NCBI GenBank assembly: GCA_945872815.1
Contig: CAMCAY010000001.1
Location: forward strand, 124,001-188,000
Direction of reading: 5' to 3'
Source: Chitinophaga pinensis
GTDB taxonomy: Bacteria; Bacteroidota; Bacteroidia; Chitinophagales; Chitinophagaceae
DNA length: 64,000 nucleotides
Shown: piece by piece, positions 49,635 to 54,151 of the stretch
Numbering within the stretch: the stretch's first letter is position 1
Layout of the letters: each line of letters starts with the position of its first letter
Notes under the pieces: model-generated
Seen by the model: the letters and a program-made list of their open reading frames with translations, nothing else
What the model was told of the DNA's origin: nothing
Databases searched by the model: none
Made by a program: the position numbers and the translations under genes

Positions 49635-50135
49635 ATGTCTAATTATTTCGAACCACAAGATTCATTTATTGAGATAAGCACACATCATTTTGCGAAGGTA
49701 TTATTCAACGATACGTTACAACAACATGGATTGTTTGCCCTTGAAACTTTTAATGCTGGTGACATAATTTGTAATTTTTCTGCAAAAGAAACCCACACCC
49801 AACCTAATTTTTTAACAATTCAGGTTTCTGCTCAGCAGCACATTTCTTTATTTCCTGAATTTTTAAAATATACCAATCATAGTTGTGAGCCCAACGTGTT
49901 TTTTAACACAGAAAACATGAATTTAATTGCAATAAAAGAAATAAATATTAATGACGAATTGTGTTTTTTTTATCCTTCAACAGAGCTAAGTATGTCACAA
50001 CCATTTGATTGCAACTGTGGGACAAGGGTTTGTTTAAAAATTATTAAAGGCGCAACGTTCCTTCCGAATTCTGTTTTACATAATTATCAATTGAATTCTT
50101 TCGTTAAGAATGAAATATCAAAACAACAAGATTAA
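49635..50135 (+). CDS. Stand-alone SET-domain protein
   Basis: 166 residues, soluble. The SET motifs are NHSCEPN (residues 81-87), the DELCFFYP segment with a candidate catalytic Tyr near residue 113, and a post-SET CNCGxxxC cluster (126-133) that would bind zinc. SET domains move methyl groups from S-adenosylmethionine to lysine side chains. No transmembrane segment or signal. Three bases separate its stop from the ATG of the ATP-grasp gene, so the two are almost certainly co-expressed. Target unknown; a peptide or protein made by the neighbouring ligases is a natural guess. Confidence 0.88.
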   Translation: MSNYFEPQDSFIEISTHHFAKVLFNDTLQQHGLFALETFNAGDIICNFSAKETHTQPNFLTIQVSAQQHISLFPEFLKYTNHSCEPNVFFNTENMNLIAIKEININDELCFFYPSTELSMSQPFDCNCGTRVCLKIIKGATFLPNSVLHNYQLNSFVKNEISKQQD

Positions 50136-50138
50136 TAC

Positions 50139-51278
50139 ATGGCGCTGCTGCAACAGTTTTTCTCATTAAACCAATTGCTTCCTGATAAGGAGAAGATGAA
50201 AGTTTGGGTACTTGCTCCATATATAGAATCAACAGACGAAAATATTGATTACTACTACGATTTTTCTCAAAGTATTGAAGAATATACTAGGATCTTTAAA
50301 AAACTGGATATTCAATGGATATGGCAGCCGGTTACAATGAAGAACCTTGAAGAAGTCATCAATGCTATTTCAACAGAAAAAAAAGAAGCTGTTTTTTTTC
50401 CGGTTGTTTTAAATCTTTGTGATGGAGATGAAAAGAATGGAACACCCGGAATAACAGTAATTAAAAAGCTAGAGGAGCAGCATCTTGTATTTACGGGTGC
50501 TGATGAATATTTTTACAACATTACCACATCAAAGATTCCAATGAAAAGAGCTTTTGATGAGTATGGTATTGCAAATGCTAAATGGATGGCCGTTGATAGC
50601 CCCGAAATTAATCCTGAAGAAATACTCGACAACATTGAAGCGCCTATTATTATCAAGCCCGCTGTTTCGGGAGGAAGTATGGGAGTTGGAGTTAAAAATG
50701 TTGTAGAATCAAAAGAAGCGCTAGTTGGTGTATTACACGATTTATTTAAAGGATACAGGGGATGGAATCTTACAACTGATGGATTAATTGCTGAGAAATT
50801 CGTTGAAGGAGAAGAATATACTGTGCTCATTAGCGGATCACATGATAGACCCCAAGATGCAAACATCTATTTACCCGTTGAAAGGATTTTTCATTCATCA
50901 CTACCCGATAAAGAAAAATTTTTATCCTTTGACCGACTGTGGGAAATATATGAAACAGAATCTTGTATGCCTCAACAAGAAAACTTTTACGAATACGGGT
51001 TGCCCGAAGCCGAATTAATACAACCGCTGAAAAAAATATCATGGGATGCGTTTGTTTCAAACAAAGGAGTGGGGTATGCAAGAGTTGATATCAGGCGAGA
51101 CCGAAAATCAAATACACTTTTTGTTCTGGAAGTTAACGCTCAGTGCGGCATCAGTGAAGATGAGAATTATACTTCAATTGGGGCAATTTTAAAATTTTCG
51201 AACAGGTCTTTTTCCTTGCTTGTTGAAGAAATAATTATAGATGCTATTAAACGCGCTCAATTAAAAAGTTTTATTTAA
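50139..51278 (+). CDS. ATP-grasp ligase, D-Ala-D-Ala-ligase-like
   Basis: 379 residues. ATP-grasp features: IIIKPAVSGGSMGVGV (lysine 174 and flexible Gly loop), AEKFVEGEEYTVLI (about 218-231), GYARVDIRRD (about 312-321) and VLEVNAQCG (329-337, metal ligands Glu and Asn). Such enzymes activate a carboxylate with ATP and join it to an amine, giving a peptide-like bond. It is not the housekeeping Ddl: the N-terminal region (VWVLAPYIESTDENIDYYYDF) is different and there is a second, related gene next to it. Partner of the SET proteins on either side. Confidence 0.88.
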   Translation: MALLQQFFSLNQLLPDKEKMKVWVLAPYIESTDENIDYYYDFSQSIEEYTRIFKKLDIQWIWQPVTMKNLEEVINAISTEKKEAVFFPVVLNLCDGDEKNGTPGITVIKKLEEQHLVFTGADEYFYNITTSKIPMKRAFDEYGIANAKWMAVDSPEINPEEILDNIEAPIIIKPAVSGGSMGVGVKNVVESKEALVGVLHDLFKGYRGWNLTTDGLIAEKFVEGEEYTVLISGSHDRPQDANIYLPVERIFHSSLPDKEKFLSFDRLWEIYETESCMPQQENFYEYGLPEAELIQPLKKISWDAFVSNKGVGYARVDIRRDRKSNTLFVLEVNAQCGISEDENYTSIGAILKFSNRSFSLLVEEIIIDAIKRAQLKSFI

Positions 51279-51301
51279 TTTCTTTTTAGAACATTTAGAC
51301 A

Positions 51302-52750
51302 ATGTTAAACAAAAGCGAACTAAAAATATGTGTTTTACAGCCGGATTATTCAACTACCTCCGTTGATTACCAGCATTATGACCCCCCGAGAAATCTTTCG
51401 GGGTTAATCAAAAACAGTACGGTTGATCATGTTTTTCTAAACAAACTCACCACATACAAGCAACTCAGTGCTTTGTCTAAAAAGAACTATGATATTTTTG
51501 TAAACCTTTGTGAAGGCTATCTCGATTGGGAAATACCATCCATTGATGTGATTTATTTTTTAGAAAATTTAAACCTTCCTTTCACGGGGCCTACCTCGAT
51601 ATTGTATGACCCTACGAAAGAATTGATGAAATACGTTGCATATACAGTTGGTGTTAATACCCCTGCTTTTGCAACGATAGAAACAATAGAAGAAATAGAC
51701 TCTTCGTGTAACCATTTGCGTTACCCTTTATTTGTAAAACCCTCCAAGGCAGGTGATAGTCTGGGTATTGATGCGTTTTCTCTCGTGAATGACAAGTATG
51801 AGCTTTTGAAAAAAGTAACATCCATTATTGATGAGTATCGTCCAATATTGGTAGAAGAATATATTGACGGAAGAGAGTTTACTGTAATGTTGGTTGCAGA
51901 TGCGAAAGACCATAAAACGCAAACGGTGTTTAATCCTATTGAATATATCTTTCCCGGCGGAAACGCTTTTAAAACCTATTCGTTAAAAACTTCTGAGTTG
52001 CACCCCAATGCAAATGTTCCTGTAGAAGACCCTTTTCTTTCTCAACAGCTACAAGAAGCTGCAGCAGCCATTTTTACAGGATTTGGAGGAGTGGGTTATG
52101 CGCGACTAGATTTTAGGATGAATGAAAAAGGCGAATTGTTTTTTCTCGAGATCAATTTTACTTGCTCCGTTTTTTATGAAAATGGATATGAAGGTTCGGC
52201 TGACTATATCTTAAAATACAGTGGCATCAGTAAATCTGAATTTTTACAAAAAATTATTGAGGAGGGAATGGAGAGGCATCAGCAAAAACAGAAAAAATAT
52301 ACAATGAAGGGTAATTCCATATCGGGATATGGAATTTGTGCTGTAAAAGATTTAGAAAAAGGCGAAGTTGTATTTAAGGGAGAAGAAAGACCACAGAAAA
52401 TTGCTACGCTTTCATATATAAGAGATCGCTGGTCTGTTAAAGAACTTGAAAATTTTCGGAAATACGCCTACCCAATCAGCAATGAAGTATTTTTGCTGTG
52501 GGATGATAATCCTGCCGAATGGGCTCCCCAAAATCATAGTTGTGAAGCGAATAGTTCTTATGTTGGTTTAGACGTGGTGGCAAATCGACCAATCAAAAAA
52601 AACGAAGAGATTACTCTTGATTATGCTCAGTTTTTAGATGAAACCATGGAGCCATTCGAATGTACATGTGGGGCTGTTTCTTGTAAAGGATTTATCAAGG
52701 GTACCAAAGAAAATTCTGTCAGCTTCCGTGAGCGAAACAGGAAAAGCTGA
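51302..52750 (+). CDS. ATP-grasp ligase fused to a C-terminal SET domain
   Basis: 482 residues. Residues 1 to about 325 are an ATP-grasp ligase (YPLFVKPSKAGDSLGI with Lys near 146, VEEYIDGREFTVML near 184-197, GYARLDFRMNEKGELFFLEIN near 265-285). Residues about 333-470 are a SET domain: GYGICAVKDLEKGEVVFKG, NHSCEAN at 411-417, EITLDY with Tyr 441, and a CTCGxxxC zinc cluster at 453-460. The joining of ligase and methyltransferase in one chain is strong evidence that both act on the same product. It follows the first ATP-grasp gene by 23 bases. Confidence 0.9.
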   Translation: MLNKSELKICVLQPDYSTTSVDYQHYDPPRNLSGLIKNSTVDHVFLNKLTTYKQLSALSKKNYDIFVNLCEGYLDWEIPSIDVIYFLENLNLPFTGPTSILYDPTKELMKYVAYTVGVNTPAFATIETIEEIDSSCNHLRYPLFVKPSKAGDSLGIDAFSLVNDKYELLKKVTSIIDEYRPILVEEYIDGREFTVMLVADAKDHKTQTVFNPIEYIFPGGNAFKTYSLKTSELHPNANVPVEDPFLSQQLQEAAAAIFTGFGGVGYARLDFRMNEKGELFFLEINFTCSVFYENGYEGSADYILKYSGISKSEFLQKIIEEGMERHQQKQKKYTMKGNSISGYGICAVKDLEKGEVVFKGEERPQKIATLSYIRDRWSVKELENFRKYAYPISNEVFLLWDDNPAEWAPQNHSCEANSSYVGLDVVANRPIKKNEEITLDYAQFLDETMEPFECTCGAVSCKGFIKGTKENSVSFRERNRKS

Positions 52751-52848
52751 TTAATAAGATTATCTTCCTTCAATCCACTTTACTATCCATTGAATCATCC
52801 ACCTCTCAAAGGGGATTAGATTTCGTTTATTTTTTATTAAAAAAAGTT

Positions 52849-53784
52849 ATGAAAACATTTGTTGTTATTGCAAAGTTGTTTAAGCGATATTATTTAAAAC
52901 TTTCTTTTACTTATTCGTTGTATTGTATAGAAATGATGGGGTCTTTGCTTCGGCCATTTTTTTTGGGTGTTGCGGTGAATGACATCATTAAGGGAAGCTA
53001 CCATGGTTTGGTGGTGTTGTCGCTTGTTCACCTTTTGTGGCTTCTGATTGGCACTGTTAGACACATGTATGATACAAGAACATATACCTCTATATACACT
53101 ACGCTTGTTACAAGGTTTTTGTCAGTTAACAATTCTAAAAAAGACATATCCAAACTCAGTGCTCACAGCACACTTTCAAGGGAGCTCGTTGATTTTCTTG
53201 AATCGGATCTGACCTATATTATAGAGGCGCTATTTAATATTTTTGGCTCTTTGATTTTACTCTTTTATTATAACAAAAACATAGTCGTACTATGTTTGTT
53301 GATGCTGATCCCTGTAATCATAATCAGCTTTTTTTATGGAAAACGAGTGAGTCGGCTCAATCGCTTAAAAAATGATGAGCTAGAAAAACAGGTTAGTGTA
53401 ATTGCTTTTGGAAATGAGGCTTCAGTAAAGCAACATTATTCTAATTTAAAAAAATGGCAAATAAAAATTTCAGATAAAGAAGCTATTAATTTTGGAATCA
53501 TGGAATTGTTTGTGTTAATAATCATAGCGAGTTCATTGCTTATTTCTTCCGGTGTTTTTGGTTCAACCCTTCTTGCCGGAAGCTTAATCGGAATCTATAA
53601 TTATGTACTAAAGTTTGTTTCCGGCCTTGATACAATTCCATACGCTATTCAAAAGATAAGCTCACTTAAAGATATTGTGCGAAGAATAACAATAGAGAAA
53701 GATGATATCGAATTGGTTGATATTAAAAATACGGTAGACAAAGAAATGAATTATATTCAGGGCAAACTTAAGCTTTCTGCTTGA
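52849..53784 (+). CDS. ABC-transporter six-helix membrane domain without ATPase
   Basis: 311 residues. Six hydrophobic segments (about 18-35, 55-70, 130-160, 200-220 and two around 215-250) with exporter-type intracellular helices, for example the FLESDLTYIIEALFNIFGS stretch. The protein stops after the transmembrane domain; there is no Walker A, signature or Walker B sequence here or downstream. It resembles the ABC_membrane_3 group, which contains only this domain. It is 98 bases after the ATP-grasp-SET gene on the same strand and could export the product, using an ATPase encoded elsewhere. Confidence 0.8.
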   Translation: MKTFVVIAKLFKRYYLKLSFTYSLYCIEMMGSLLRPFFLGVAVNDIIKGSYHGLVVLSLVHLLWLLIGTVRHMYDTRTYTSIYTTLVTRFLSVNNSKKDISKLSAHSTLSRELVDFLESDLTYIIEALFNIFGSLILLFYYNKNIVVLCLLMLIPVIIISFFYGKRVSRLNRLKNDELEKQVSVIAFGNEASVKQHYSNLKKWQIKISDKEAINFGIMELFVLIIIASSLLISSGVFGSTLLAGSLIGIYNYVLKFVSGLDTIPYAIQKISSLKDIVRRITIEKDDIELVDIKNTVDKEMNYIQGKLKLSA

Positions 53785-53785
53785 T

Positions 53786-54151
53786 TTAATTTCTTATAAA
53801 AACACACCATTCGTCTTCTATCATAAAATAAATAAAATCATAGCAGCCAAAAAGGTCTGTTCCTGTTTTGCCCTTATAATAGTGTGTATGATATTTGAAT
53901 CGAAAGCCGTGATAAAGCAGTTCTTCTTTTTTTATTTTAATTATTTTTTCAGTAGATGCAAGCTCATCCAATATCCGCCTGTTTTTTCCCAAGGCATGAT
54001 TTATATTTCTGATTAAATTATTCTCTGTTGCATGAAGTTGGTTGTTGTAAATATTTCTACAATAATCATTACAGAATTTTTTATCGGAGCGACCTCGGAT
54101 TTCCTTTTTGCAATAATGACATTGTTTAATTTGTAGGATTAATTTTTCCAT
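53786..54151 (-). CDS. Zinc-ribbon protein of unknown function
   Basis: 121 residues. The N-terminus has a four-cysteine ribbon: CHYCKKEIRGRSDKKFCNDYC (residues 11-31, given as Cys-x2-Cys and Cys-x3-Cys). Then a helical region (ENNLIRNINHALGKNRRILDELAS) and a C-terminal part rich in aromatic residues. It probably binds nucleic acid. Converges on the ABC membrane gene with one base between the stop codons. Confidence 0.75.
   Translation of the reverse strand: MEKLILQIKQCHYCKKEIRGRSDKKFCNDYCRNIYNNQLHATENNLIRNINHALGKNRRILDELASTEKIIKIKKEELLYHGFRFKYHTHYYKGKTGTDLFGCYDFIYFMIEDEWCVFIRN

Follow-up and report, generated by a model that had tools for sequence, protein, structure and literature searches.

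Why should bacterial SET-domain proteins be encoded side by side with ATP-grasp ligases, and in one case on the same polypeptide? The question is raised by four adjoining genes in a 64,000-nucleotide stretch of Chitinophaga pinensis DNA (assembly GCA_945872815.1, contig CAMCAY010000001.1, positions 124,001 to 188,000), referred to below as the window. The genes form a cassette that is conserved across a group of Bacteroidota and apparently unstudied, and the first of their products, P0001, resembles BurB of Burkholderia thailandensis, a SET-domain S-methyltransferase of free methionine (PDB 9l4t, 9l4v; PMC12542666). A small-molecule biosynthetic pathway, in which ligation and S- or N-methylation are followed by export, is the reading preferred here, at roughly even chances. 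The cassette comprises the following features.

49635..50135, plus strand: gene 1, P0001, stand-alone SET-domain methyltransferase, BurB-like, 166 amino acids (list of open reading frames; Pfam SET).
50139..51278, plus strand: gene 2, P0002, stand-alone ATP-grasp ligase resembling D-Ala-D-Ala ligase (Ddl), 379 amino acids (Pfam Dala_Dala_lig_C; profile matches to Ddl structures).
51302..52750, plus strand: gene 3, P0003, ATP-grasp-SET fusion, 482 amino acids (both Pfam domains; AlphaFold2 model).
51302..52291, plus strand: ATP-grasp part of P0003, residues 1-330.
52295..52711, plus strand: SET and post-SET part of P0003, residues about 332-470 (Pfam SET at 342-441).
52849..53784, plus strand: gene 4, P0004, exporter-type transmembrane protein of the ATP-binding cassette (ABC) class without ATPase, 311 amino acids, accessory (Pfam ABC_membrane_3).

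This layout, with gaps of 3, 23 and 98 bases between successive genes, two ATP-grasp and two SET domains, one fusion and an ATPase-less ABC protein, had been proposed in an initial annotation made from the letters alone, and the list of open reading frames (ORFs) and Pfam agree with it. P0001 matches SET at E 1.6e-9 and P0002 matches Dala_Dala_lig_C at E 2.6e-11, while P0003 matches both families (Dala_Dala_lig_C at E 5.1e-21, residues 116-285; SET at E 8.8e-9, residues 342-441); the two SET domains score 38.5 and 36.2 bits against a Pfam cut-off of 22.4. P0004 matches ABC_membrane_3 at E 2.2e-41, its other Pfam match being ABC_membrane, and no ABC ATPase domain was matched in it up to E 1. 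The structure prediction suggested for the fusion was obtained with AlphaFold2 (mean predicted local distance difference test score, pLDDT, 86.3), and the rows returned by a fold search of the whole model (VIA-align) covered residues 5-335. The host genome consists of 96 contigs, totals 2.42 Mb and is 99.85% complete.

The active sites are intact, as had been claimed. The NHSC motif, the tyrosine and the CxCGxxxC post-SET cysteines are present in both SET domains of the window and invariant among relatives, both in the stand-alone protein (N81, H82, C84, Y113, C126, C128 and C133, 49 of 49) and in the fusion (N411, H412, C414, Y441 and the post-SET C454, C456 and C461, 65 of 65). The ATP-grasp residues are equally constant, with K146, E185, R268, D270, E283 and N285 kept in 65 of 65 fusions and K173, R315, D317, E331 and N333 in 54 of 54 stand-alone ligases. 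The roles of these residues are assumed to be those described in the SET and Ddl literature. Since the catalytic residues of both SET and ATP-grasp domains are invariant in the relatives rather than degraded, selection appears to maintain both chemistries. Pfam recognises the domains across the alignments at E 1e-5, with SET matched by 34 of 34 stand-alone proteins and, in a separate alignment of the fusion (A2), both domains matched by 41 of 41 members.

Of 395 genomes sampled from the phylum, 17 have the full-length fusion and 133 match P0003 at E 1e-10, the listed matches beyond the 17 being to the ATP-grasp part. Within the family of the window the fusion occurs in 74 of 244 genomes (E 1e-60), or about 30%, spread over 37 of 101 genera. 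Scanning the species genomes of GTDB returned 55 loci, 53 of which encode the fusion or a fragment of it, and the relatives include records titled Ferruginibacter, Terrimonas, Ginsengibacter and Chitinophagaceae metagenome-assembled genomes (MAGs), with named strains among the Terrimonas and Ginsengibacter carriers. The ATP-grasp-SET architecture is kept in 65 aligned proteins (that of the window and 64 others) with identities down to about 35-37%, in an alignment that retained near-identical genomes and left out five cut or frame-shifted loci (L075, L076, L080, L083 and L084). In L083 (2369-4124) the fusion gene appears as two overlapping frames, owing to a frameshift or a sequencing error. 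A record titled as a Streptomyces griseus MAG (L036) has a similar gene order and a fusion about 70% identical, and its title is probably wrong. No fusion was found in 199 genomes drawn as the phylum of each of two genomes of the GTDB scan (titled Acetatifactor and Gastranaerophilales), which gave 2 ATP-grasp-only matches at E 1e-40; a restriction to Bacteroidota is thereby only weakly indicated, as the genomes printed for the two draws were identical apart from the centre and the group drawn is uncertain. Carriage by plasmids or phages was rejected: among 72,556 plasmid and 50,697 phage records, none has a place matching 80% of the fusion, and a scan of viral contigs gave 4 loci matching its ATP-grasp part only. 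An anti-phage defence system was likewise rejected, with 0 PADLOC-DB families matched at E 0.001 by any of the four proteins.

Are the four genes a unit? Linkage was counted in fusion loci with enough flanking sequence, 56 of them having 2.6 kb or more upstream and 55 having 1.3 kb or more downstream; another set of 15 loci was picked by hand for tandem or strong ligase matches. The ligase gene lies within 200 bases upstream of the fusion in 46 of 56 loci, and the stand-alone SET gene adjoins the fusion, on either side, in 43 of 56. Median gaps, for neighbouring pairs separated by between -200 and 500 bases, are 11 bases from SET to ligase (38 loci), 12 from ligase to fusion (52) and 89 from fusion to ABC gene (19), and the gap is 100 bases or less in all 38 SET-ligase pairs and in 50 of the 52 ligase-fusion pairs. 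The stand-alone SET profile matches 30 of the 395 genomes at E 1e-8; strong matches occur in 15, all of them among the 17 fusion genomes, the cut of at least 124.7 bits (next score 102.7) having been chosen after viewing the score list and one of the 15 (G342) being cut by a contig end. The association thus recurs in other genomes, and it is well supported that SET, ligase and fusion belong together. The tight joint unit of the initial annotation therefore stands for these three genes, but not fully for the fourth. P0004 is a looser, accessory partner, because no more than 17 of 55 loci have its gene within 300 bases downstream of the fusion, 7 more having a full ABC exporter there. Orthologues of P0004 (55-56% identity) were detected in 3 further genomes of the 395, all fusion-bearing, and relatives at 23-31% identity in 17 other genomes, all without the fusion. 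In one genome (G212) the fusion, the SET and ligase pair and the ABC gene lie on three separate contigs, and in another (G292) the SET gene is about 1.7 Mb away from ligase and fusion, with no ABC orthologue found; retention of SET or ABC genes despite lost linkage argues for joint function.

What, then, might the cassette make? From its genes and domains, the intact active sites, the conserved linkage and co-occurrence and the similarity to BurB and Ddl, all directly supported, we infer small-molecule substrates, an order of steps, a product class and export. A pathway of this kind is favoured over protein modification because P0001 resembles BurB more than it does histone methyltransferases. 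P0001 would methylate a free amino acid or a similar small substrate, acting on the sulfur of methionine as BurB does or on the nitrogen of an amine. With ATP, the ATP-grasp enzymes would activate a carboxylate as an acyl phosphate and join it to an amine, and the product would resemble a dipeptide or an amide. Within one polypeptide, the fused SET domain might then methylate this intermediate or the building block of it, so that the fusion would couple both steps, and the ABC-type membrane protein may move the product across the membrane or help to do so. The lysine or amine methylation initially suggested becomes one option among others, as BurB, the closest solved relative of P0001, methylates the sulfur of methionine (PMC12542666). 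The proposed export keeps its exporter-type membrane domain but is weakened by the missing ATPase and by the accessory standing of the gene. A more specific version can be put forward only tentatively and is somewhat doubtful: a bifunctional SET-ATP-grasp synthetase would produce small peptides or amides of a new class that carry a permanent charge (sulfonium or methylammonium), Ddl-like ligases assembling them from amino acids, SET enzymes methylating them and an ABC-type exporter releasing them. To our knowledge, nearly all SET domains described so far are protein-lysine methyltransferases; the small-molecule exceptions found were BurB and its Streptomyces homologue. If the proposal is true, natural-product methyltransferases of the SET type would form a recurring class rather than an isolated case, bacterial SET proteins would act in metabolism more widely, and a class of methylated peptide-like molecules would await description. 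No bacterial SET and ATP-grasp system appeared among the listed matches in the open full-text literature, subscription papers being mostly outside that scope and an earlier mention being possible.

Several observations weigh against a small-molecule pathway. The Fisher p value for co-occurrence of SET and fusion (2.6e-25, 395 genomes) overstates independence, as 9 of the 17 fusion genomes belong to one genus (g59), in which the same 9 genomes hold SET and fusion and five others, with weak P0003 matches, have no SET match; at genus level, SET is present in 6 of 8 fusion-bearing genera. In 13 of 56 loci no stand-alone SET gene adjoins the fusion. It lies elsewhere in 3 of those genomes (G292, G212 and G400) and is lacking in 10, though most are MAGs, as judged from the profile search of the 395 genomes and from a further one of 12 loci, namely 9 of the 13 and 3 in which the upstream flank is short. 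P0004, for its part, has no ATPase and is absent from many loci. As for the SET domains and the GxG of the N-terminal S-adenosylmethionine (SAM) loop, a glycine is present at position 344 in 64 of 65 fusions, but at position 32 in only 6 of 49 stand-alone proteins; the latter lack the usual GxG in most relatives and might be inactive. Among the SAM-contact side chains of BurB (H93, R133 and H138) only H93 is retained in P0001, as H82, with Q122 and the variable residue 127 in place of the other two. That BurB is the best PDB match of P0001 in sequence and fold, above the other solved SET proteins compared, may partly reflect sampling, BurB being presumably one of few bacterial SET proteins in the PDB. 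The fused SET domain is as close to the histone methyltransferase KMT2D as to BurB, with 54.3 and 56.4 bits, respectively, in the profile search and 34.6 and 29.7 bits in the single-sequence search. Typical natural-product genes were not noticed among the labelled neighbours, where no systematic search for them was made.

The main rival is a protein-modifying system: the ATP-grasp parts would attach amino acids to a protein whose lysines the SET domains would methylate, in the manner of histone-type SET proteins and as once proposed for the eukaryotic protein TTLL12. The near-equal KMT2D score of the fused SET domain fits it, as does TTLL12 itself, in which SET-like and ATP-grasp-like domains are joined, and in one locus (L094) the genes that come 441 bases after the fusion include one for a MATCAP-type carboxypeptidase, a tubulin-trimming family by its Pfam name. 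This neighbour was seen in one locus only, however, and no target protein gene is common to the loci compared. P0001 is BurB-like, the ATP-grasp domains are Ddl-like rather than TTL-like, and TTLL12 has the reverse domain order and showed no histone methyltransferase activity (PMC3520985). Protein modification is therefore unlikely, though it deserves to be taken seriously.

The product could also remain intracellular and serve as a solute for protection or storage, the ABC-type protein not being its exporter. The BurB pathway yields an osmolyte, dimethylsulfoniopropionate (DMSP; PMC12542666), and P0004 is without ATPase and missing from many loci. Against such a role, orthologues of P0004 track the fusion even where unlinked (G212), and a full ABC exporter occupies the same place in another clade, which leaves retention in the cell distinctly improbable.

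Still less credit can be given to a pathway for a ribosomally synthesized and post-translationally modified peptide (RiPP) of the graspetide kind, in which the enzymes would modify a short encoded precursor and the ABC protein would export it. ATP-grasp enzymes with a transporter are the typical graspetide layout, and a distant clade (f18) holds a full ABC exporter. The ATP-grasp domains are of the Ddl type, though, with RimK only a weak match (E 0.11 in gene 2), and the short precursor gene that the initial annotation had proposed to look for did not emerge: no conserved candidate is present among 776 short ORFs (18-110 amino acids, outside larger genes, within 4 kb of the fusion where the contig allows) around 65 fusion genes. 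The largest groups among them were a minus-strand family (6 loci), a cut end of GH3 (5) and a protein FeoA-like by eye (5). Chance proximity without joint function is hardly credible given the short gaps and the presence of the fusion in 15 of 15 genomes with strong SET matches, even though the trio is found in many contexts and the cassette is part of a longer run on one strand that also includes FabG, carbonic anhydrase and cupin genes.

From this run, the carbonic anhydrase and cupin genes upstream were considered as members and rejected; the cupin gene occurs in 7 of 53 fetched loci and in the window, and therefore reflects local gene order. The minus-strand gene at 53786-54151 encodes a 121-amino-acid protein with a possible N-terminal zinc finger and ends 1 base past the ABC gene. 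It was rejected as well, as its relatives adjoin the gene for single-stranded DNA-binding protein in many related genomes, even where the cassette lies elsewhere (L056, L059, L064 and L065). On the plus strand between 44,001 and 55,000, a Bacteroidota-type promoter motif has no exact match upstream of the cassette and a single one inside the fusion gene. The genome of the window encodes two further SET proteins (L150:1453-1875 and L151:253-657), which are of another type and, by eye, without post-SET cysteines.

Variants of the locus and related gene sets occur in other genomes. Eight loci of the f18 family, whose fusions are 37-39% identical to P0003, have the fusion gene first, then that of a complete ABC exporter and then that of another small SET protein of about 120 amino acids. 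A BurB-like SET gene lies upstream wherever the contig extends far enough, and a separate ligase does not adjoin; in one of the eight (L097) ABC_membrane and ABC_tran are both confirmed in a single protein. In L094 (4662-8490, minus strand, genome G211) genes for an N-formylglutamate amidohydrolase, a MATCAP-type protein and a glutathione-synthetase-like ATP-grasp protein lie beside the fusion. Another locus (L174:4992-8318, minus strand) joins SET, SAM decarboxylase and spermidine synthase in one protein of 617 amino acids, and its neighbour of 483 amino acids has a SET domain at the N-terminus and, by eye, ATP-grasp-like motifs in its C-terminal region. This C-terminal region has no Pfam match and no ATP-grasp chain among its matches, and is matched, without its SET domain, in 4 other genomes of 92. 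SET fusions tied to polyamines in this way may lend side support to a small-molecule mechanism. In L193 (4877-8125) a SET-less ATP-grasp protein scoring 160 bits with the fusion profile is encoded by the second gene past a pair resembling, by eye, SAM decarboxylase and spermidine synthase.

Known systems and other gene sets close to the cassette include tandem pairs of Ddl-like ATP-grasp genes in other genomes of the phylum (L105-L112 and L114), which adjoin lysine 2,3-aminomutase-like and often GNAT genes. They share with the cassette the pairing of Ddl-like ligases, mostly 24-33% identical to the ATP-grasp part of P0003, but no SET gene was observed beside them. In an unrooted tree the two ligases of the window form two clades of their own, joined at 100/100 and apart from the tandem pairs, which may constitute another amino-acid ligase cluster. 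Ddl and L-amino-acid ligases are the closest ATP-grasp enzymes; the Ddl fold and its ATP/Mg residues are present in both window ligases, and P0002 matches Ddl structures by profile. Both, however, score far below the curated Ddl cut-offs, gene 2 with 65.3 against 243 bits and gene 3 with 83.3 against 245.65 (TIGR01205). In the fusion, the Ddl loop GSS(V/I)G reads GDSLG and the lid KY reads KT, so the amino-acid pockets of the fusion and Ddl probably differ.

TTLL12 is the one SET and ATP-grasp-type protein found in a search of 5.39 million open papers, whose only other match concerns drug side effects. According to PMC3520985, it too joins a SET-like to an ATP-grasp-type domain, the SET-like domain being N-terminal and followed by a TTL-type ligase, and histone methyltransferase activity was not detected in it; in the window fusion, by contrast, ATP-grasp precedes SET and the ligase is of the Ddl type. 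BurB, which has a homologue in MSMT of Streptomyces mobaraensis, works with a decarboxylase, a transaminase and a dehydrogenase for DMSP and malleicyprol rather than with ATP-grasp ligases (PMC12542666, PMC7496086), and the asparagine of NHSC, invariant here, is missing in it. Nevertheless, BurB and P0001 are both small, single-domain SET proteins of similar size, and Y124 and H93 of BurB correspond to Y113 and H82 of P0001.
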